From Synergistaceae bacterium (GTDB lineage: Bacteria; Synergistota; Synergistia; Synergistales; Aminobacteriaceae), in assembly GCA_031272145.1 (NCBI GenBank), contig JAISUL010000106.1, positions 1 through 38,020 of the forward strand: DNA of 38,020 bases, written 5' to 3'. Positions 12,405-37,846 of the stretch are shown here, in pieces; positions within the stretch are counted from its first letter, which is position 1, and each line of letters begins with the position of its first letter. The position numbers were made by a program, and so were the translations under genes. The notes beneath the pieces were generated by a model. That model worked only from the letters and a program-made list of their open reading frames with translations. It did not search any database and was not told the origin of the DNA.

Positions 12405-13376
12405 CTAATAGGTAACCTTCTGGAGCGTATACGTCACGTTGTACGAAACCGGATAGCCATCAACGACGTCAGTCCCCGTCTGCCTCACTGTAGCCGAAGT
12501 GTATGAGTCTGATAAGAATTTCCATGTAAACGTGGCACCAGGCTCAACAGTCGTCCCTGAATATGTACCGTTGCTGTATGTAACATTGGCCTGTTCACCA
12601 TCTCGGCTGTACAAGACAGCGGAAGTGGACTGACCATTGTAAGTGGCGCTCCAAGTACTCTTGCCGTCGAGATCGAAAAGTCCATGATTTTCGTCCTCGT
12701 CTTGAAGGTCAAGCGTAAAATTGCCACTCGGTGCCGTCAATGAAATAGTATAACTATGACCAGCGACTGTTGCTGTTGCTGTTCCGGAGCCTCCGGTTAT
12801 GCTCCACTGACCATCCAGAGCCGCGAAGTCTGGCGTGCCGCCGCTCTCGGCTTTGAGCGTATACGTCACGCGGTATGAACCCGTATAGTCATTAATGACA
12901 ACAGTCCCTGTCTGCGTTACTTGGGCTGTAGTGTCTGACAAGAATTTCAATGTAAACGTGGCAACGGGCGCAACAGTAGTCGTCCCATAATACGTACCGT
13001 TGCGGTAGGTAACATTGACATGGTCGTCCTCTGGAATAGACATAGAAAGATAGCCAATGTTCTGGCCATTGTCAGTGGCGCTCCAAGTACTCGTGCCGTC
13101 GAGATCGAAAAGTCCATGATTTTCGTCCTCGTCTTGAAGGTCAAGCGTAAAATTGCCACTCGGTGCCGTCAATGAAATAGTATAACCGCCGGCTGTTGCT
13201 GTTCCGGAGCCTCCGGTTATGCTCCACTTGCCATCCAGAGCCGCGAAGTCTGGCGTGCCGCCGCCCCCGCCGCCGCCGCCGCCACCGCAGCCTCCGGCCA
13301 CTACCACGAAGGACATGACCAGCGCCACAACCGCCAGCGCGAACCACCCCTGTTTCCCCTGACCCCGCAACAACAT
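12405..13376 (-). CDS. Putative lipoprotein with two tandem repeat domains
   Basis: A 323-residue exported protein of unknown function. The start at ATG 13376 has AAAGGA upstream and matches the start of the paralogue at 14267-14806. The signal peptide (GWFALAVVALVMSFVVVAGGC) ends in a lipobox-like VAGGC, so lipid attachment is likely. A run of ten glycines follows the cysteine. The mature part consists of two copies of a domain of about 140 residues that begins with PDFAALDG and ends with VTYTL. The composition (Gly, Thr, Ser, alternating strands) suggests a beta-rich, lipocalin-like or surface domain. It has two strong upstream promoters and a downstream terminator, so it is a separate transcription unit. 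No function is assigned. Confidence 0.85.
   Translation of the reverse strand: MLLRGQGKQGWFALAVVALVMSFVVVAGGCGGGGGGGGGGTPDFAALDGKWSITGGSGTATAGGYTISLTAPSGNFTLDLQDEDENHGLFDLDGTSTWSATDNGQNIGYLSMSIPEDDHVNVTYRNGTYYGTTTVAPVATFTLKFLSDTTAQVTQTGTVVINDYTGSYRVTYTLKAESGGTPDFAALDGQWSITGGSGTATATVAGHSYTISLTAPSGNFTLDLQDEDENHGLFDLDGKSTWSATYNGQSTSAVLYSRDGEQANVTYSNGTYSGTTVEPGATFTWKFLSDSYTSATVRQTGTDVVDGYPVSYNVTYTLQKVTY
12410..13270 (-). repeat. Tandem 432-bp internal duplication in the lipoprotein gene
   Basis: The two domains are offset by 432 bp (144 codons). Near-identical stretches include the 90 bp around 12642-12735 and the same bases at 13074-13167. A small indel follows in the VAGHSYTI/GGYTI region. Nucleotide identity far above that of the flanks shows a recent duplication or gene conversion. 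Confidence 0.85.
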
Positions 13377-13470: not shown

Positions 13471-13540
13471 CGCTTATGACGGAGCTAAGCAGCCCCGCCG
13501 AATTGCAACCAAACTTATTGGAATTTAAGGCAGGATTTGG

Positions 13541-13571
13541 CCGTTGGGCCGTTGGGCCGTTGGGCCGTTGG
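13541..13571. repeat. Octamer tandem repeat CCGTTGGG, about four copies
   Basis: CCGTTGGG occurs at 13541, 13549, 13557 and (partial) 13565. The array lies at the expected transcription start of the proximal lipoprotein promoter, so the copies would form the 5' end of that RNA. Confidence 0.9.
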
Positions 13572-13780: not shown

Positions 13781-14263
13781 ATGCCCAGCCGAAAAATCCT
13801 CGCCGCCGCCCGCAATGTCTTCCTCCTAATAGCCCTCGACCAAGCCTCGAAGCTATGGGCGGTGGCCAGCTTATCCCCAGCGTCCCCAGCGTCCCCAGCG
13901 TCCCCAGCGTCCGGGGCTGCTTTCTCCTCGGGGAACTGGTTCTCCATCGCGCTGAGCTTCAACCGCGGCGCGGCCTTCTCCATCATGGACGGGGGGACGG
14001 GCACGCCCGGGCTGCTCCTCGCCGCGGCAGGGCTGCTCGTCCTCGGCGTCGCCTGCGTGGCCTGTCCGGCGCTGCGCAGGCTGCGCGGGATGTCCTTCCT
14101 ATGGGCAGGGGGCGTCTCGAACTTCATCGACCGCGTCGCCCGCGGTTGCGTCGTCGACTGGGTGCAGGTGTGGGGGCTGGGCGTGAACCTCGCCGACCTC
14201 TGGCTTTGCGTCGGCTGCCTCTTGGCCGTGGCCTCCGCCGTCGAGGCGTCCAGACGCCGCTGA
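13781..14263 (+). CDS. lspA: Lipoprotein signal peptidase LspA
   Basis: A 160-residue signal peptidase II, an inner-membrane aspartyl protease that removes the signal peptide of prolipoproteins. The conserved boxes are LDQASKLWA (Asp20), FNRGAAFSI (Asn61), GGVSNFIDR (catalytic Asp117) and VNLADLWL (catalytic Asp139). Four hydrophobic helices are present. The start at ATG 13781 has AAAGGAG eight bases upstream; a GTG at 13748 has no such site. A four-fold Ser-Pro-Ala repeat (residues 32-43) extends the periplasmic loop after the first helix. The gene lies between two putative lipoprotein genes on the other strand and ends three bases before the stop of the second. Confidence 0.95.
   Translation: MPSRKILAAARNVFLLIALDQASKLWAVASLSPASPASPASPASGAAFSSGNWFSIALSFNRGAAFSIMDGGTGTPGLLLAAAGLLVLGVACVACPALRRLRGMSFLWAGGVSNFIDRVARGCVVDWVQVWGLGVNLADLWLCVGCLLAVASAVEASRRR
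13874..13911. repeat. 9-bp tandem repeat inside lspA (SPA repeats)
   Basis: CCCCAGCGT recurs with a 9-bp period at about 13875, 13884, 13893 and 13902 and encodes SPASPASPASPAS. The truncated lspA copy at 14874-14934 has only two such units, so copy number differs between the copies. Confidence 0.9.
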
Positions 14264-14951: not shown

Positions 14952-17900
14952 CTACCCCAGACAGCCGCGGCACCCCCCCTGCCGCATGGAAAACGGGCAG
15001 CGCGGGCAGCGCTTTTCCCCGGCTCGATCCTTCGGAAGCCAGGGGCCGCACGCCGCCTCCTCCGCAGCGCGCCGCACGCGCTCCGCTATGTCCTCCAAAG
15101 ACCGCGCCTCCCACAAACGAACCGCCCCCTCCCTCAGGAAAATCAGGCCCACGCTTACGCTGCCCACGCCGGTCAACATCTCCAGGGCCAGGGCGTAGAA
15201 GTCTAGCTGCGCCGTATAGAGCTCGTCCGGGAGGTTAGTCAACCCCGAGGCGTCGGCTGCTGCGGTTATCTTGTAATCCCTCACGCTCCACTTGTCGCCG
15301 TCTCGCCACGCGACGTCCGTCGTGCCCACCAAGCGAACCCCATGCAGCGACACGCGGAACGGGCTTTCCCTCATAAGGAGGTCATGAGCCCCTGAACCGT
15401 CTGCTGACTCTAGGCGGCGCCTGATGTTTATCCCCTCATCGGTGGCGGCGAATCTGGTTAGCCACGCGGTCAGAGGCTCGCGCCCGTTAGCTTGAGAAAG
15501 CTCCCCCAGCCACTGGCTCAGGCTCTCCTCCCTCAAGTCCCAGTTGGCCAGAACCCAGTGGGCTAGGGAGCCAAGGTCGGCACCACCGATATTAGGGTAC
15601 TCATCTTCCGTCGTGTCGGGGATTTCCCATTTCAGGTCGAGGCCCTGGCGGTACTTGCGGCGCCATGCCAGCGGGCACCACTCGAACAGGGCAAACGACG
15701 TGGCCGAAAACGACGCCAGCGCGCCTGATGTGGCAGCGGGAAGCGGTACGGCTTGGGGTTGACTAACCCCTCGGGGTTGACTAACCCCCGCCGGGGGGAG
15801 GTCATTAGACCCTAAGCGGATAAAATGGGCTGGGTTTGGGGCTTGAGCCTCGGAGGGTACGTGGATTATTGGCACGTCCTTTTTTTCCGGCCCCTCAAGC
15901 CACGACAAGGTTGTGGCCAGCCAGCTCTTGTCTGTGGCCTTTTCCCCAGCGCCCCCAGCGGAGTTTTTCCGTGTTCCGCAAATCACCAGCGCGTCGCGGG
16001 CGCGCGTCGCGGCGACGTAGAACAGGCGCATCGACTCCTCGGCCTCGGAGCGGCTAGTTAAGACCCTATCCCAGTGCAGCGAAAGATGGGCGCTGTCCTC
16101 CTCCGGCGGGTAACAAAGCTCGTCCGGCAGGGCAGACACTGCGACGCCCATCAGAGTTGACGGGGCTGCGGTGCTCTTGGGGTTCCTTATGCCACGCTCT
16201 GCTCTGACTACGGCCACGACGGGAAACTCCAACCCCTTCGCGGCGTGTACCGTCATCACGTGGACGGCGTTTTCGTCGACGGACTCCGGCTCCACGACGT
16301 CCCGACCTGCGCGCAGCGCCATGTCGAGCCACCTCGCGCAGCCCGCCACCCCTCCGGGCATTGCGGCCTCGTACTGCGCTGCGAGGGCGGCGGCGTGCCG
16401 GACGTTCGCCGTGACGCGCTCGCGGTTCCGCGGCGGCACGGACGAAAGCCACAGGGAGTCGGCTTGGGGTCTCATGACCTCTTGGGGTCTCATGACCCCT
16501 TGGGGTCTCATGACCTCCAGCAGGGACGACAGGATCGCGCTAGGGCCCCTCAGGGCTCCTATGCGCCTCAGACGCTCTATGGGGGTGCGCGCCGCGGCTG
16601 CCTGGATGGTGCCGTCCTCGATGCTCCGCATGGCCTCGTCCGGGCTTAAGCCCGAAAACGGCGAGCAGAGCCAGCCGGCCAGGGCCGCCTCGTCCTCCGG
16701 GGAGGCGGCGGCGCGGAGCGTGTTCACCACGTCCGTCACCTCGCCGCGCGAGAAGTAGCTCTTCGCCGCGACGAACACCGCCGGAATGCCCAGGGCGTCA
16801 AACGCCCGCTCCAGCACCTCGTACTCCCCGCGCGTGGGCGTCAAGACCGCAAAGTCCCCCCAGCGAACCGGACGAGCCTTATTATCCCCCTTATCCCAGA
16901 CGGTCCGGCCTTCGCCGACCCATCGCGAGAAGAGGCAGGCCAGTTCGGCGGCCCCGCGCTCCCGCGCCTCGGACACTGGGCCGTCGGCCTCCGAGAGCAG
17001 CACAGTCAGGGGCTCAACTGTGACGGCGTCCCTTATGCCGCCGCTTGGGGTCTCATGACCCCTGTCGTCAGAGGTCATGAGACTCCAAACTGGCCTCAGG
17101 GGTTCGTAGCTGTTGCCCCACACGCTGGCGAAGAGCGAGTTGATGTGCCTCAGGAGCGACGCGCGCGTGCGGAAGCTCACGTCGAGCGGCACGGAGGATG
17201 TCGTGAGACCCCGAGGGGTCATGAGACCCCGAGGGGTCGTAAGACCCAGAGCCGACGCGCGGGCGGTGCAGGCCTCGAACAGGCTGGGGTCAGCGTGCCG
17301 AAAGCCGTATATCGCCTGCTTGACGTCCCCGACGATGAACAGTTTTTTTTCACTCTGACTCTGAGTCTGAAGTATCAGGTTGTACTGCACCCGATCCGTG
17401 TCCTGAAACTCGTCTATGAGGACGTGGCGGAACGCTTGGCCGGCTTGGGGTCTCATGACACCCTTTGCTTGGCCGGCCTTCAAGGCGCGCCGGGCCAGCG
17501 AGATCATGTCCGAGAAGGAGAGCAGGTTCGAGCGCCTCTTGGTCTCGTTCCAAGCCTCCCAAGCCGCGGCGCATAGGCGCAGGAGCGCGGCGCGAACCTG
17601 CCTATCCGCGTCGGAGCTAACCGTTAAGAACTGCGAGAACTCCGCCATCGCCTTGTTAGCCTTGCGCCAGTCACCGGCGGTCATGCCGAGCCGCTCGGTG
17701 ATCATCTTGAACAGCTTGGAGCTGCCGCCGCGGACGTTCGAGCAGACGTCGACGAAGAACTGGCGCTTCACCTCTTCCGTCGGGTCGGGGTTGACTAACC
17801 CCTCGGGGTTGACTAACCCCTTGGGGTCTGCCGGACGGCGCCTCATGACCTCTAACAGCGCCATCTCTTTATCGTGCTTCGCCCCGGCGATCTCGCTCGC

Positions 17901-18629
17901 CAGATCATCAAATATACTGCCCCACCTACTCCACGCGTCGTCCCAGACGCCACGCAGGACGTCCCTCCTGACGATGGCGCGGACGTGGGCGAGCCGCGAG
18001 TCTGACTCTCGCTCGGTCTTGGCGGCCCAGCGGAGGAGCGTGGAGGGCGTCCGGTCGAGGCTCGCGTGCGTCTCTATCACCTCGCGCGCCAGGTTGCTCA
18101 GCGTGCCAGCCCCCCACTTCTCGACGGCGGCGCGGAGGGGATGGTCTACCTGGGGCTGGTACGGCATGCCGGAGAAGTCCAGCGCGTCGACGGCGCGCGT
18201 GAATCCCTCCCAGAACGCGTCCTCGCGTGGTGCCGAGACCACCGAGAAGCCCGGGTCGACGTCGAGCGCCAGCCCGCCGATGCGAATCAGGCGGGACGCG
18301 AACGAGTGTATGGTCGAAATCCACACCTCGTCGAGGCCGTCCCGCACGTCCCGCTGCCGAGGCTCCGGCAGGAGGGGCAGGAAGTCGAGCACCGCCCTCT
18401 CGACCCGCTCGCGCATCTCACGCGCCGCCGCGTCCGTGTAGGTCAGAGTCAGGATGTCGCGCGGCAGGCACTCCGGGTCATTGAAGAGCGTGGCGACGAA
18501 CCTCCGCGTGAGCACCCACGTCTTGCCAGTCCCGGCCCCCGCCCTGACCGCCACTATGTTCCCGTCCTGCGCCGCGGCCCTAGCCTGCTCCGGCGTAAGG
18601 CCGCTTAAAATCTGCTCAATTACGTTCAA
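14952..18629 (-). CDS. addA: AddA/RecB-like UvrD helicase-nuclease
   Basis: A 1225-residue superfamily 1A helicase with a C-terminal nuclease, of the AddA/RecB type used in double-strand break processing. Helicase motifs are GAGTGKT (31-37), TLTYTDAAAREM, IDEFQDTD (near 408) and VMTVHAAKGLEFPVV. The nuclease has GTTDVAW and VRDYK (near 1118) of the PD-(D/E)XK family. Cys in FEWCPLAW (near 984) and the C-terminal CPRCP...CRGC cysteines would fit an Fe-S cluster of the AddB/Cas4 kind, which typical AddA proteins lack. The start is TTG 18629, with GGGGGGA six bases upstream. At least six clusters of palindromic mini-repeats are inserted in frame. No addB is visible in the window. Confidence 0.9.
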   Translation of the reverse strand: MNVIEQILSGLTPEQARAAAQDGNIVAVRAGAGTGKTWVLTRRFVATLFNDPECLPRDILTLTYTDAAAREMRERVERAVLDFLPLLPEPRQRDVRDGLDEVWISTIHSFASRLIRIGGLALDVDPGFSVVSAPREDAFWEGFTRAVDALDFSGMPYQPQVDHPLRAAVEKWGAGTLSNLAREVIETHASLDRTPSTLLRWAAKTERESDSRLAHVRAIVRRDVLRGVWDDAWSRWGSIFDDLASEIAGAKHDKEMALLEVMRRRPADPKGLVNPEGLVNPDPTEEVKRQFFVDVCSNVRGGSSKLFKMITERLGMTAGDWRKANKAMAEFSQFLTVSSDADRQVRAALLRLCAAAWEAWNETKRRSNLLSFSDMISLARRALKAGQAKGVMRPQAGQAFRHVLIDEFQDTDRVQYNLILQTQSQSEKKLFIVGDVKQAIYGFRHADPSLFEACTARASALGLTTPRGLMTPRGLTTSSVPLDVSFRTRASLLRHINSLFASVWGNSYEPLRPVWSLMTSDDRGHETPSGGIRDAVTVEPLTVLLSEADGPVSEARERGAAELACLFSRWVGEGRTVWDKGDNKARPVRWGDFAVLTPTRGEYEVLERAFDALGIPAVFVAAKSYFSRGEVTDVVNTLRAAASPEDEAALAGWLCSPFSGLSPDEAMRSIEDGTIQAAAARTPIERLRRIGALRGPSAILSSLLEVMRPQGVMRPQEVMRPQADSLWLSSVPPRNRERVTANVRHAAALAAQYEAAMPGGVAGCARWLDMALRAGRDVVEPESVDENAVHVMTVHAAKGLEFPVVAVVRAERGIRNPKSTAAPSTLMGVAVSALPDELCYPPEEDSAHLSLHWDRVLTSRSEAEESMRLFYVAATRARDALVICGTRKNSAGGAGEKATDKSWLATTLSWLEGPEKKDVPIIHVPSEAQAPNPAHFIRLGSNDLPPAGVSQPRGVSQPQAVPLPAATSGALASFSATSFALFEWCPLAWRRKYRQGLDLKWEIPDTTEDEYPNIGGADLGSLAHWVLANWDLREESLSQWLGELSQANGREPLTAWLTRFAATDEGINIRRRLESADGSGAHDLLMRESPFRVSLHGVRLVGTTDVAWRDGDKWSVRDYKITAAADASGLTNLPDELYTAQLDFYALALEMLTGVGSVSVGLIFLREGAVRLWEARSLEDIAERVRRAAEEAACGPWLPKDRAGEKRCPRCPFSMRQGGCRGCLG
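15753..15812. repeat. Mini-repeat array in helicase gene, two units plus a diverged third
   Basis: GGGGTTGACTAACCCC occurs twice with an 18-bp period, followed by the related GGAGGTCATTAGACCC. The helicase strand reads it as PAGVSQPRGVSQPQ (about residues 940-959), one frame off the reading used at 17781-17835. Confidence 0.9.
16463..16517. repeat. Mini-repeat array in helicase gene, three units
   Basis: CTTGGGGTCTCATGACC starts at 16463, 16481 and 16499, an exact 18-bp period. The helicase strand reads RPQGVMRPQEVMRPQ (about residues 705-723). Confidence 0.93.
17044..17087. repeat. Mini-repeat copies in opposite orientation in helicase gene
   Basis: CTTGGGGTCTCATGACCCC is followed 10 bp later by the inverted, diverged GAGGTCATGAGACTCC. 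The two could pair as a larger inverted repeat. The region is read as SLMTSDDRGHETPSG. Confidence 0.8.
17201..17247. repeat. Mini-repeat array in helicase gene, inverted relative to 16463
   Basis: GAGGGGTCATGAGACCCC units with an 18-bp period. On the helicase strand this is the reverse complement of the unit at 16463 and is read as LGLTTPRGLMTPRGLTT (about residues 461-477). Confidence 0.9.
17442..17465. repeat. Single mini-repeat copy in helicase gene
   Basis: GCTTGGGGTCTCATGACACCC, read as AKGVMRPQA just N-terminal of the IDEFQD motif (about residues 389-396). Confidence 0.8.
17781..17835. repeat. Mini-repeat array in helicase gene, GLVNP form
   Basis: GGGGTTGACTAACCCC occurs twice with an 18-bp period and is followed by a half unit. 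The helicase strand reads PKGLVNPEGLVNPD (about residues 266-283). Confidence 0.92.
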
Positions 18630-21715: not shown

Positions 21716-23146
21716 TTATATGTGGTGCCTTTTCTTGATCTGGTCATACGCGGTCAGCAGGCGGTTAAAAACCCCCACGTTGCTCCACGTTTCGATGTTA
21801 AGCTCTGTCATCAGGCAGCAGTTGGCCTTTTGCCAGCCCGAGTACCCACGCTCCATGTCCTTGCGCGCGTCGCGGTACGCCCACAGGGGCGTCTCCGCGT
21901 TGCCAGGGTTGCTCACCTGTACGTACGACAGATAGCGCCCCCGCAGCTTCTCGTCCCGCCTTGTAAGGATGGAATTATCCGTCCCTCTCACCTCTACGTT
22001 GCCCTCTTTGCTCCCGTCGTCCGGCACAGGTGCGGAGTATGAGCCGCGGCACGAGAATATCCCTATGCCGTCATACTGCTTTCGGTCTATCCCGACAAAG
22101 CACTTGCAGAACAGCGGTGCAAACGCGCCGTTGATAAACATCAGCTTGCGCGAGGCCATCGCGTTTTTGACGCCGTTGACGAACGGCGCGCAGTTCATCA
22201 GCTTGTCAGCGTACAGGCCGACGACGGAGTTCGGGAAGTAAATGAGGTCGGCGCTCCCCGGAAACATCTGTGTCAGCGGGTTGTAGTCCTCGACGGAGGA
22301 GCATCCGATGGCGCCGAACATCTTGGCGGCGTTGGCTCCCTCCAGCGAGAATAGGCTGTCTCCGACTATGGCCACCCGTATGTCCTTGGGGTCAAACGAC
22401 CCCTTGGGGCGGGAGTCCGGTGCGCTGATGCCAGTCCAGGACTCGTACAGCCGTCCGAAGGCTTGAAACGCGTGCCACTCTATCTGTCGGCGCGAGGCCA
22501 GCTGCAGGGCGGCGCTCTTGACCTGAGTGAGGCGCGCGCCGGCCGAGGCGTTGAAGAGGTCTGGCAGGAACGGCATCGGGCGGTTCAGCTCCGCCGACAT
22601 GTGGCCTAGGTTGATCAGCGACGTGTTTCGGCCTATGTGCTGCTCGAGGAGCTGGTACTCCTTGATGTTTCTCACCGACGAGAAGATTATGCCGAGCACG
22701 TTGTTCTGCATCGTGCCGCTGAAGGCCGAGAGGGTCTCCATCACGGCGCGCGAGGAGAGTATCGACGAGGCCATCGCCGAGAAGACGGCGACGATTCCGC
22801 AGGACAGGGCGCGGCTCATGTCGAGGGGCTCAGGGCGCACCTCGGTGTACTCGTTTCCGTCGGACTGCTTGCACAGGGGCGTCAGAATCACGTTCAGGGC
22901 GCTTGGGCTTGCGGCCTCCTGAAAGAGCGCCCTTATGCCGTCCGTGCCGCCGCACGTGTAGGCGTCGAGGGAGACTATATCCTGCGAGAACAGCAGCCTC
23001 AGCAGCCGCATCTCGGCTTCGTCGCGCGCGCAGGTGAAGATTTTCACGTCGACGCCGACCCTTTGAAGCGCGTAGAGCAGAAGAACACCAGCCGGCACGG
23101 TTCCCTGCGTGCTCTCGTCGGCGATGATTACGCGCGGCAAATCCAA
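21716..23146 (-). CDS. CobB/CbiA-like protein with degenerate active sites
   Basis: A 476-residue protein that looks like a cobyrinic acid a,c-diamide synthase/dethiobiotin-synthetase relative, but with altered motifs. The N-terminal P-loop position reads IADESTQGTVPAG, without the usual GKT lysine. The C-terminal amidotransferase-like domain (from VAIVGDSLFSLEG) has LIYFPNSVVGLYADKLMNC in place of the GGYPE segment and FINGAFAP in place of the AECGG nucleophile motif. It is probably a pseudoenzyme or has a new activity. The linker carries a mini-repeat (RPKGSFDPK). The TTG at 23146 is the preferred start because AAAGGGGGG lies eight bases upstream; a GTG at 23170 is possible. The family call is moderate. 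Confidence 0.5.
   Translation of the reverse strand: MDLPRVIIADESTQGTVPAGVLLLYALQRVGVDVKIFTCARDEAEMRLLRLLFSQDIVSLDAYTCGGTDGIRALFQEAASPSALNVILTPLCKQSDGNEYTEVRPEPLDMSRALSCGIVAVFSAMASSILSSRAVMETLSAFSGTMQNNVLGIIFSSVRNIKEYQLLEQHIGRNTSLINLGHMSAELNRPMPFLPDLFNASAGARLTQVKSAALQLASRRQIEWHAFQAFGRLYESWTGISAPDSRPKGSFDPKDIRVAIVGDSLFSLEGANAAKMFGAIGCSSVEDYNPLTQMFPGSADLIYFPNSVVGLYADKLMNCAPFVNGVKNAMASRKLMFINGAFAPLFCKCFVGIDRKQYDGIGIFSCRGSYSAPVPDDGSKEGNVEVRGTDNSILTRRDEKLRGRYLSYVQVSNPGNAETPLWAYRDARKDMERGYSGWQKANCCLMTELNIETWSNVGVFNRLLTAYDQIKKRHHI
22385..22411. repeat. Mini-repeat copy in the CbiA-like gene linker
   Basis: TTGGGGTCAAACGACCCC followed by TTGGGG, read as PKGSFDPK between the two domains of the CbiA-like protein. 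Confidence 0.8.
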
Positions 23147-23180
23147 AACAGCCACCCCCCTTTGTGTCACACAGTCTATT

Positions 23181-23212
23181 CGGGGTCTAAGCCCCCAAGG
23201 GGTCTAAGACCT
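23181..23212. repeat. Mini-repeat pair upstream of the CbiA-like gene, 17-bp period
   Basis: GGGGTCTAAGCCCCC and GGGGTCTAAGACC start at 23182 and 23199. The period is not a multiple of three, unlike all copies inside genes. The pair would lie in the leader of the CbiA-like mRNA. Confidence 0.85.
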
Positions 23213-23250
23213 CCTGATGAAGTGTTTGCTATAATATCACGGATACTGCG

Positions 23251-26479: not shown

Positions 26480-27901
26480 TCAGTTCCCCCTTAGGCTGCC
26501 CTCGTCCAGGGCGTGGGCGTAGATGTCGAGCAAGAGCGCCCTCAGGTCGTCGCCGTGCATTCCGACTTTGCTGGCGGTCAGGGCGAGGTTTACGTAGAGG
26601 CTGCGGTCGGCTGGGTTCATGCTCACGGCGTCGGCCAGTATTTTGACGTCGGACGGCAGGGAGAGGTCCTTAACGAAGCCCTTCCATATGGGCCCCGTGT
26701 CCCCCGCGAGCGACATGTCGGGGAGCGCGCCGCCGCCGGGCTCGTCGAGGCACGCCCGGAAGGCCTTGAGCGCGTCGCTGAACCTTCTGGCTCGGAACAT
26801 GGACACGCCTATGCTGAACAGCCCGCCCCTGTCGACCTTCTCGTAAATCACTGCCGCGCGGCGCGGAGTATTAGGGGTATTAGGAACCGCGGTATTAGGA
26901 ACAGCAGTATTAGGAACCGAGGCCCTTGGAGCAGCTGGCCTTGTGGCAACTGCCGCCGTGGGGACGGCTGCCCTCCTGCGTGCGGCGGGTCTGAGGGCGG
27001 CGGGTCTGGCGGGGCTGGGGGGCCTGAGGGAAACTGTCCCCTTGGGGGGCTCGGCAGCGGGACGGCCTGCCTCCGTGGCGGGTGCGGCCGCGGGGGTGGA
27101 CACTTCGCCGCCAGGCACTGCCGGTGGCTCGGCCGCCTTTGTGACCTCAGGCTTTGAGGGCTCGGCCTTGGTGCCCTGCTCCTCCTTGGGAGCGGCTGCC
27201 TCCTTGGGAGCGGCTGCTTCTTTGGGAGCGGCTGCTTCCTTGGGAGCGGTTGTCTCCTTGGGGGCAACTGCTGCCTCCTGGGGTGGCTCTAGCGCGGGTT
27301 TTCCCATGATGGACACCGAGCCGATGACTATCGCGCAGAAGATCGCCGCCGCTGCCAGCATGGTGAACAGCCGGCGCCGTTTTTTGCTGGAGGCTTTGGC
27401 GCCCCTGGTCTGCGGCTCTGGGTGGTCGCTCCCAAGCTTGTGCGAGCGGAACGGCTGATACTCGGCGTTCGCTAGGCGCGACACGTTGGCGTCCATCTCG
27501 ATGCCCTGCTCCGGGCCTGAGCTCCGGCTCTCGGCTCTCTTCAGCGCGTCCGTACGGGGCGGGACGAGTCCCCCAAACTGGTTAAGGGGCTGATTAACCC
27601 CGGCCACGTCTTCCTCCTCTTGAGCAATGGACTGACCGATGGGCTGGCTAGCCACCGCCTCGACGGGTTCCCATGTCTGCGCGCCGGGCAAGCTCGGCTC
27701 GGCTGCCATGCTCGGCTCGACTGCCTCCGTCGGCGTGGGCTCCTCCGTGGCAGGGACGACTGCCCGCGCCCTCTGAGCCGTCACGACCACCGGAAGCCGC
27801 AGAACCACCGCCGCGTCCAACAGAAGACCAGTCCGGTCGAACGGGACGTCGCTGAACGACGGCCTTCCGCCCCGAAGCCAATCCTCCAAATCCTTAAGCA
27901 C
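26480..27901 (-). CDS. Proline/alanine-rich single-pass membrane protein, TPR-like C-terminus
   Basis: A 473-residue protein of unknown function. An N-terminal cytosolic part is rich in Glu/Pro, then KKRRR leads into one membrane helix (about residues 178-200). A long Pro/Ala/Lys linker follows, containing KEAAAP repeats and PNTAV repeats. The C-terminal 120 residues (from RGGLFSIGVSMFRARRFSDALKAF) look like TPR helices. The topology resembles TonB-like or periplasm-spanning adaptor proteins, but no family is recognised. The GTG at 27901 is preferred because GAGGGG lies eight bases upstream, inside a mini-repeat; a GTG at 27910 is the alternative. Its promoter appears to be at 27989-28017. 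Confidence 0.7.
   Translation of the reverse strand: MLKDLEDWLRGGRPSFSDVPFDRTGLLLDAAVVLRLPVVVTAQRARAVVPATEEPTPTEAVEPSMAAEPSLPGAQTWEPVEAVASQPIGQSIAQEEEDVAGVNQPLNQFGGLVPPRTDALKRAESRSSGPEQGIEMDANVSRLANAEYQPFRSHKLGSDHPEPQTRGAKASSKKRRRLFTMLAAAAIFCAIVIGSVSIMGKPALEPPQEAAVAPKETTAPKEAAAPKEAAAPKEAAAPKEEQGTKAEPSKPEVTKAAEPPAVPGGEVSTPAAAPATEAGRPAAEPPKGTVSLRPPSPARPAALRPAARRRAAVPTAAVATRPAAPRASVPNTAVPNTAVPNTPNTPRRAAVIYEKVDRGGLFSIGVSMFRARRFSDALKAFRACLDEPGGGALPDMSLAGDTGPIWKGFVKDLSLPSDVKILADAVSMNPADRSLYVNLALTASKVGMHGDDLRALLLDIYAHALDEGSLRGN
26875..26921. repeat. 15-bp tandem repeat (PNTAV) in membrane-protein gene
   Basis: TATTAGGAACCGCGG and close variants occur three times and encode PNTAV; a shortened unit precedes them. 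Confidence 0.85.
27180..27275. repeat. 18-bp tandem repeat (KEAAAP) in membrane-protein gene
   Basis: CCTTGGGAGCGGCTGCCT and variants occur about five times with an 18-bp period and encode KEAAAP. The CTTGGG core and the 18-bp period recall the palindromic mini-repeats, but the unit is not a palindrome. Confidence 0.85.
27568..27602. repeat. Mini-repeat copy in membrane-protein gene
   Basis: AAGGGGCTGATTAACCCC preceded by a diverged inverted half (CCCCCAAACTGGTTAAGGGG). It is read as VNQPLNQFGG before the membrane helix. Confidence 0.65.
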
Positions 27902-27907
27902 CCATAC

Positions 27908-27978
27908 CACCCCTCGCGAGGGGTCAGCGCAGGCCCCAAGGGGTCAGCGTAGGCCCCAAGGGGTCAGTTTGACCCCAA
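27908..27978. repeat. Intergenic mini-repeat array, 20-bp period
   Basis: CCCCTCGCGAGGGG is followed by three GGGGTCAG-type units with a 20-bp period (CCCCAAGGGGTCAGCGTAGG) and ends TTTGACCCC. It fills most of the predicted leader of the membrane-protein gene, including its ribosome binding site. Confidence 0.92.
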
Positions 27979-37471: not shown

Positions 37472-37846
37472 ATGGAAAAGCGCGAGATTCGGACGGCGAA
37501 GTCGCCTTCGCCCATCGGCCCCTATTCTCAGGGGCTGGTGTTGGACGGCAGGATTTACGTTTCTGGTCAGGGGCCGACCGACCCCGCAACGGGCAAGCCC
37601 CCCGCCGGCATAGCGGCCCAGACGCGGCAGACCCTGAACAACGTCAAGAACATCGTCGAGCAGGGCGGCGGCACTATGGACAACGTCGTCAAGACCACGG
37701 TTCATCTGGCGAACCTGGACGACTTCGCTGAGTTCAACAAGGTCTACACGGAGTTCTTCCGCCCGCCCTACCCAGTCCGCACGACGGTCGGCAGCGCGCT
37801 CCTCGGCGGCATTCTGGTGGAGATAGACGTCGTGGCGGAGCTCTAG
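37472..37846 (+). CDS. ridA: RidA family reactive intermediate deaminase
   Basis: A 124-residue RidA/YjgF protein, which removes reactive enamine/imine intermediates such as 2-aminoacrylate from PLP enzymes. The N-terminus has SPSPIGPYSQGL; the arginine that binds the carboxylate is in PVRTTVG; the C-terminus has LVEIDVVAEL with the key Glu. The start at ATG 37472 has GGAGG eight bases upstream. It has its own promoter and is followed by a further gene after 3 bp. Confidence 0.96.
   Translation: MEKREIRTAKSPSPIGPYSQGLVLDGRIYVSGQGPTDPATGKPPAGIAAQTRQTLNNVKNIVEQGGGTMDNVVKTTVHLANLDDFAEFNKVYTEFFRPPYPVRTTVGSALLGGILVEIDVVAEL

Follow-up and report, generated by a model that had tools for sequence, protein, structure and literature searches.

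Palindromic DNA has been found inside protein-coding genes in several systems. Rickettsia palindromic elements (RPEs) are described as lying in frame in many unrelated genes, in loops, and also outside genes (PMC6649704, PMC3733652). Intragenic repetitive extragenic palindromic (REP) sequences of the GTAG and CGTC types are small hairpins, single or grouped, that form in-frame insertions; they are reported to be frequent in DNA repair genes, among them uvrA, uvrB, a UvrD-type helicase gene and recB, and the CGTC type has no dedicated transposase (PMC3733652). Perfect inverted repeats are tolerated in the coding sequence of Nematomorpha mitochondria, where template switching has been proposed (PMC6649704), and the palindromic amphipathic repeat coding element (PARCEL) lies within genes and is described as linked to surface phenotypes (PMC2996958). 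Here we analyse a window of 38,020 nucleotides from a Synergistaceae bacterium (the whole stretch of DNA studied, positions 1 to 38,020 of contig JAISUL010000106.1, assembly GCA_031272145.1), in which one addA-like gene carries six clusters of in-frame repeats. What is repeated there is probably a tiny palindrome of DNA that is dispersed over the genome, and not a protein feature. A literature search found no paper on such repeats in Synergistota.

The unit of repetition is 18 nt of DNA, made up of a 16-bp hairpin, GGGG-NN-N4-NN-CCCC, with a 6-bp stem and a 4-nt loop, plus a 2-nt spacer. Examples from addA are GGGGTT-GACT-AACCCC and GGGGTC-TCAT-GACCCC, each with two spacer bases, and every addA cluster consists of one to three such units at the DNA level. 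The spacer is TT or TC (AA or GA on the opposite strand), the loop is non-palindromic and most commonly AGTC/GACT (AGTC in 28 of 72 units), and the stem occurs as TT/AA, TC/GA, AC/GT, AA/TT and AT/AT types. The inner stem covaries: in units selected by their GGGG/CCCC ends and tandem placement alone, pairing is seen at stem positions 5-12 in 70% and at 6-11 in 72%, compared with 42% and 35% after shuffling (0/2000), with T-A, A-T, C-G and G-C pairs all represented and the four loop positions unpaired. Arrays fold into successive hairpins (z about -1.6 to -6.5), and the units, of which there are one to four per site, are near-identical inside one array and differ between arrays.

The host gene and the units that it contains are as follows; length gains are relative to the AddA proteins of related bacteria.

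14952 to 18629, minus strand: addA-like gene, host of the insertions, 1225 aa, Pfam PF00580, PF13361 and PF12705
17781 to 17838: cluster c1, two exact GGGGTTGACTAACCCC cores (at 17787 and 17805) and a decayed neighbour, coding strand reading GLVNPE GLVNP, gain of 7 to 9 residues
17441 to 17463: cluster c2, one core GGGGTCTCATGACACC, reading GVMRPQ, gain of 8 residues
17197 to 17251: cluster c3, three 18-nt units with loop ATGA, reading GLTTPR GLMTPR, gain of 15 residues
17041 to 17086: cluster c4, an exact core at 17047 and a decayed core at 17071, reading GHETPS, gain of 14 residues
16460 to 16517: cluster c5, three 18-nt units, reading (G/E)VMRPQ three times, gain of 18 residues
15749 to 15817: cluster c6, exact GGGGTTGACTAACCCC cores at 15755 and 15773 and a decayed unit at 15798, reading GVSQPR GVSQPQ, in the variable helicase-nuclease linker, which is too variable for a length gain to be judged
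15378 to 15397: decayed single unit, residues 1078-1084, gain of 7 residues
15231 to 15248 (core 15231-15246): single 18-nt unit, GAGGTTAGTCAACCCC+GA, in the nuclease domain at residues 1129-1135, reading SGLTNL, gain of 6 residues

Judged from its domains (UvrD-helicase, UvrD_C and PDDEXK_1 in Pfam) and from a match to AddA of known structure (PDB 3u44, E 3e-37), the gene product is an AddA-type helicase-nuclease of a Synergistales bacterium. An earlier sequence-only reading had listed six clusters, and these are present within a few residues of where it placed them (residues 258-283, 389-397, 460-477, 515-530, 705-724 and 938-961); the two degenerate single units at 15231-15246 and 15378-15397 had been overlooked. 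Its count of one to three units per cluster also stands, since Tandem Repeats Finder reports 18-nt arrays at 16463-16517, 17200-17251 and 17785-17827, with copy numbers of 2.4-3.1, as does its statement that addA accounts for much of what the window contains (7 of 8 exact cores). The genome to which the window belongs is a 2.05-Mb assembly of 107 contigs (completeness 97.8%, contamination 0), and the nearest named relatives found are rumen metagenome-assembled genomes called Fretibacterium.

The residues encoded by the clusters are missing from the AddA proteins of 29 relatives, which are about 50% identical to the product described here. The anchors on either side of c5 are separated by 9 residues in 27 of these relatives and by 10 in the other two, compared with 27 here (+18), and those around the nuclease-domain unit by 9 residues in 26 of 28 relatives, compared with 15 here (+6). 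The same alignment approach applied to RsmH, a carrier elsewhere in the genome, revealed 18 extra residues, GSTDPS GSTDPS GSAGLP, with none in 27 of 29 relatives and two residues in the other two; the entire 54-nt block is extra compared with the relatives. The interpretation of the addA clusters as lineage-specific insertions is supported by these protein alignments. In the predicted (AlphaFold) AddA structure, which has a mean predicted local distance difference test score (pLDDT) of 80.7, core elements are spared and the inserts are placed in the loops between them, where confidence is low; 8 of the 10 internal regions with pLDDT under 50 are inserts; the coinciding segments are 269-273, 391-397, 463-473, 518-529, 707-724, 935-967, 1079-1082 and 1127-1131. 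The suggestion that the gene is an unusually tolerant target agrees with both results, and neither of the observations named beforehand as refuting, conservation of the hexapeptides in homologues from distant phyla or a position in catalytic core helices, was found.

The same palindrome is dispersed over the genome and is far commoner than chance would give. Exact matches to the core GGGGTYNNNNRACCCC, searched with the pattern GGGGTYN4RACCCC, number 44 in 2.05 Mb, compared with one for a control in which the pattern was read backwards and 0-4 per genome in 60 relatives; with one mismatch allowed, the counts are 119 and 13 (control). Tandem pairs of the form GGGGN8CCCCNNGGGGN8CCCC number 27 here, 0-1 per genome in 187 other Synergistota and 0 in the control. 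Identical 16-mers GGGGTTGACTAACCCC are found on contigs C34, C43, C46, C78 and C107, and units are carried by intergenic DNA and by over 15 genes that are unrelated to one another, with either orientation to the direction of transcription. Among the carriers are RsmH, GlgB, Tex, a family 2 glycosyltransferase, an alpha-2-macroglobulin, a YgjP-like peptidase, a HIGH nucleotidyl transferase, ETF-alpha, a PurE-type AIR carboxylase, a solute-binding protein and conjugation genes; in most carriers other than addA, insertion as opposed to native sequence is judged from array structure and not from orthologue alignment. A second hotspot lies in adjacent conjugation genes of contig C78 (an S26/TraF-like peptidase, TrbI and CagX; L077:3453-6915), with at least 9 units, and these genes might be a vehicle for the hairpin family.

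How the units are read and spaced was analysed in about 275 kb of stretches, mostly picked around copies, with genes called by us from codon usage. Three of the six frames of GGGGTTGACTAACCCC are stop-free, and all three are used across genes (GLTNP, GVSQP and GLVNP). The addA units themselves are read in three frames, as GVSQPQ/GVMRPQ, GLMTPR/GHETPS and GLVNPE. With three frames in use for a single 16-mer within AddA, the peptide is incidental, and a conserved peptide motif as the repeated object is rejected; the hexapeptide of the sequence-only reading is one DNA palindrome in three translations. Units in genes are spaced by 18 nt in 23 of 24 cases, whereas intergenic units are spaced by 17 (10 cases), 18 (6), 20 (2) or 21 nt (2), a difference with a Fisher p of 4e-6. 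At least one array called intergenic (L066:1390) is probably part of a gene extended upstream, and reassigning it to a gene would strengthen this contrast. Exact 16-mers lie deep within genes in 18 of 29 clusters, compared with 1 of 14 for exact 15-mers (p 8e-4). Such frames and spacings are what a process acting on DNA leaves behind once selection for reading frame has sifted its products.

The 15-mers belong to a sister form of the hairpin, which has a 15-bp core and a 17-nt period and is intergenic. For the 15-bp sequence GGGGTCTSAGACCCC there are 39 matches here and 43 and 6 in the two genomes of a neighbouring genus, g9 (G008 and G024), with no others in the 183 Synergistales genomes searched. 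In the g9 genomes, a repeat of about 100 nt resembling a miniature inverted-repeat transposable element (MITE), intergenic and with terminal inverted repeats (TIRs) GGAAGC[AG]CTGATTAA (L084-L093, L107-L112), encloses the 15-bp hairpin GGGGTCTSAGACCCC between its TIRs, in places in 17-nt tandem. This hairpin is shared with the genome described here, but the TIR ends are almost lacking here (28 matches in 66 kb of sampled g9 DNA compared with 1 in 275 kb). Since the 15-bp form is common to both, the family is older than this species. The orthologous AddA of g9 is without inserts, and the 18-nt coding arrays are specific to this species among the genomes examined. Spread in viruses was also considered and rejected: among viral contigs scanned there were two matches, of which one lies in a Gly/Pro-rich repeat region that looks collagen-like and the other is a weak look-alike. 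The viral contig IMGVR_UViG_3300027984_000204 (L148:130-181; 47% GC) contains an 18-nt array of GGGGATNNNNATCCCC-TT hairpins that has the same architecture as the 18-nt family, in an apparently unrelated genome.

The addA gene makes up 0.18% of the genome and contains five of the 29 exact clusters genome-wide (Poisson p about 3e-9, for a gene selected for its apparent richness), and it is a true hotspot. The loop ATGA (ATGA/TCAT) is found in 4 of 7 addA clusters and in 2 of 41 elsewhere (p 0.002), which suggests that local spread within addA explains part of the excess, and four addA sites have a common left flank, C[CG]GCTT. The gene may gather many units as a long, fast-diverging sequence with many tolerant loops, to which spread of the ATGA-loop subtype within the gene would add. 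The sequence-only reading had also considered a process tied to the transcription of addA or to recombination. This part is not supported, given the more than 15 unrelated carriers of mixed function, the intergenic copies and an AddB-like gene in which no hairpin unit is present; relative to the gene, 12 spacers have one orientation and 6 the other. The earlier interpretation is supported in part, and the cause is not specific to AddA.

The explanation that we consider likely is a mini-palindrome that disperses and is amplified locally, with selection on frame, stops and loops deciding which copies persist. Single units would reach new sites as 18-nt insertions, probably via a hairpin intermediate, either mobilised in trans by an enzyme or through replication template switching onto an existing copy. 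They would then expand to 2-4 copies through hairpin-assisted slippage; slippage had been proposed in the sequence-only reading, and the near-identity of neighbouring units fits tandem duplication. Purifying selection would remove copies that shift the frame, bring in a stop codon or hit the folded core. A purely local origin, in which slippage or quasi-palindrome correction acted in place on native G/C-rich sequence with no dispersal, would account for arrays whose units are nearly identical and differ from those of other arrays, and for the several stem types, and it is accepted that perfect short palindromes can arise through template-switch correction (PMC6649704). We nevertheless think it improbable, as identical GGGGTTGACTAACCCC sequences are found on five contigs, the loop AGTC recurs throughout the units, the RsmH block is wholly extra in columns that are empty in relatives, and relatives of similar GC are without such palindromes. 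A sequence-specific DNA signal spread by selection, such as a site for a regulator, uptake, segregation or a recombination hotspot, is rather less credible still. The units are palindromic, repeated, on both strands and in both genes and spacers, resembling HIP1 or DNA uptake sequences, and AddA-type enzymes do read DNA signals. Only GGGG/CCCC is fixed, however, and the covarying inner stem and variable loops fit structure over sequence recognition; moreover, about 120 sites in 2.05 Mb, many of them clustered in one gene, make a poor genome-wide distribution, and the arrays are inserted extra DNA.

That addA has more insertion sites than any other sampled gene would be expected of a decaying pseudogene tolerating insertions, but this is very unlikely: the frame is open over all 1225 codons, residues that do not vary among 26 orthologues are retained (among them GAGTGKT, DEFQDT, the motif preceding the nuclease DYK and the cysteines of the cluster), the inserts avoid core elements, and the genome has an AddB-like gene that is free of inserts. 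Selection of GVSQPQ, GLTNPE and GVMRPQ as linkers or interaction motifs can be given hardly any credence. The hexapeptides are indeed all short, Gly/Pro-rich, hydrophilic and in frame; three-frame translation of one DNA unit refutes protein function as the main cause, the hosts share no function, the sister form is intergenic, and orthologues manage without the hexapeptides. An artefact of assembly or binning, conceivable in a 107-contig genome, is next to impossible to reconcile with arrays that lie within long contigs and coherent genes on many contigs, with open frames and with the completeness and contamination values given above.

Several points count against the dispersed mini-palindrome. 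Stretches were mostly chosen by the presence of copies, and the gene calls from codon usage were our own. PF01797, the family of the REP-associated tyrosine transposases (RAYT, Y1 transposase), has no match in this genome and does match in control genomes, and no mobilising enzyme was identified in this genome. Insertion was demonstrated at the protein level only, against orthologues of the identity given above, and low pLDDT at the inserts is owed partly to missing homologous columns there. Several addA sites have net gains (+7, +8, +14 and +15) that cannot be divided into 6-residue steps, so that duplications of the flanks or further small indels were also involved. The covariation statistics ignore the shared ancestry of units. 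An 11-nt direct repeat, GCTTGGCCGGC, lies on both sides of the c2 unit (window 17429-17474) and may stem from duplication of the target or from slippage at the site; no flanking direct repeat of this kind was found at the other sites.

RPE-1-type elements are about 100-150 bp long. The units described here resemble RPEs as in-frame insertions in unrelated protein genes that are absent from orthologues, but they come in an 18-nt quantum, in tandem, with variable stems and loops and in Synergistota, and no element of about 100-150 bp with a family consensus is seen. Like REPs they are stem-loop palindromes repeated across a genome; they differ in having no GTAG/CGTC tetranucleotide at their ends (these are GGGG/CCCC, and flank frequencies show neither), in a core of 15-16 bp and a unit of 17-18 nt compared with 20-40 bp, and in the position of most exact 16-mers deep in genes. 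There is no RAYT gene in this genome, and a RAYT-driven REP is rejected on the missing PF01797. Compared with a MITE, the unit is one small inverted repeat in itself, TIR-bounded elements with the hairpin being found in g9 and not here; the 2-nt spacer would fit a 2-bp target duplication. The head-to-tail, near-identical copies, 1-4 per site, are those of a simple tandem repeat, which leaves dispersal unexplained. The Nematomorpha palindromes reach 142 bp per arm, with both arms encoding conserved residues, whereas here the residues are inserted; compared with PARCEL (PMC2996958), the peptide here varies by frame and the hosts are mostly housekeeping enzymes. The working of the family resembles that of RPEs and intragenic REPs, and it falls outside both on REP tag, size and transposase and on RPE size; it is a miniature version, apparently without a transposase, of palindromes inside genes. 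We raise more tentatively that it is the smallest known self-dispersing palindrome, a frame-neutral 18-nt hairpin colonising genes across the genome via a non-RAYT route and spreading locally in addA, and it is just as tentative that frame neutrality comes from a loop one nucleotide longer (16-bp core plus 2, compared with 15 plus 2 in the sister form).

Other members of the family in the window lie outside addA.

22388 to 22403: exact core of the 16-bp family, within the neighbouring gene 21716-23170 (minus strand), reading GSFDP
23182 to 23213: intergenic array with a 17-nt period, sister 15-bp hairpin (GGGGTCTAAG[A/C]CCCC)
27920 to 27976: intergenic array with a 20-nt period, three hairpins (GGGGTCAGCGYAGGCCCC-AA)

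A one-mismatch match at 37570, in a RidA-like gene, was left out of the insertion count. It lies in what we take to be the conserved YVSGQ..-P.DP of that protein, and some one-mismatch matches such as this one are probably native sequence. The window also contains repeats of other kinds. A gene for a Pro/Ala-rich protein has an 18-nt array encoding APKEAA (4.6 copies, 27181-27262), with a spacer resembling the hairpin family. A PNTAV array with a 15-nt unit lies in the same gene (26876-26919). Perfect tandem arrays are formed by the 8-nt GGCCGTTG (4.1 copies, 13539-13571) and by the 9-nt TCCCCAGCG (4.3 copies, 13874-13912, GDAGDAGD on one strand), and a secreted-protein gene (12423-13264) contains a 432-nt tandem duplication, two copies with an 82% match.

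If the hairpin is indeed a dispersed mini-palindrome, palindrome insertion into genes extends beyond Rickettsia and beyond genomes with REP and RAYT, and units as small as 18 nt suffice, lengthening protein loops by 6 residues at a time. Because the unit is used in three frames, and because its spacing is 18 nt in coding DNA and mostly 17 nt in intergenic DNA, the products of the DNA process can be separated from what selection keeps. The addA gene is a further example of the enrichment of intragenic palindromes that has been reported for DNA repair genes, and AddA, RsmH, GlgB and Tex provide natural libraries of loop insertions.

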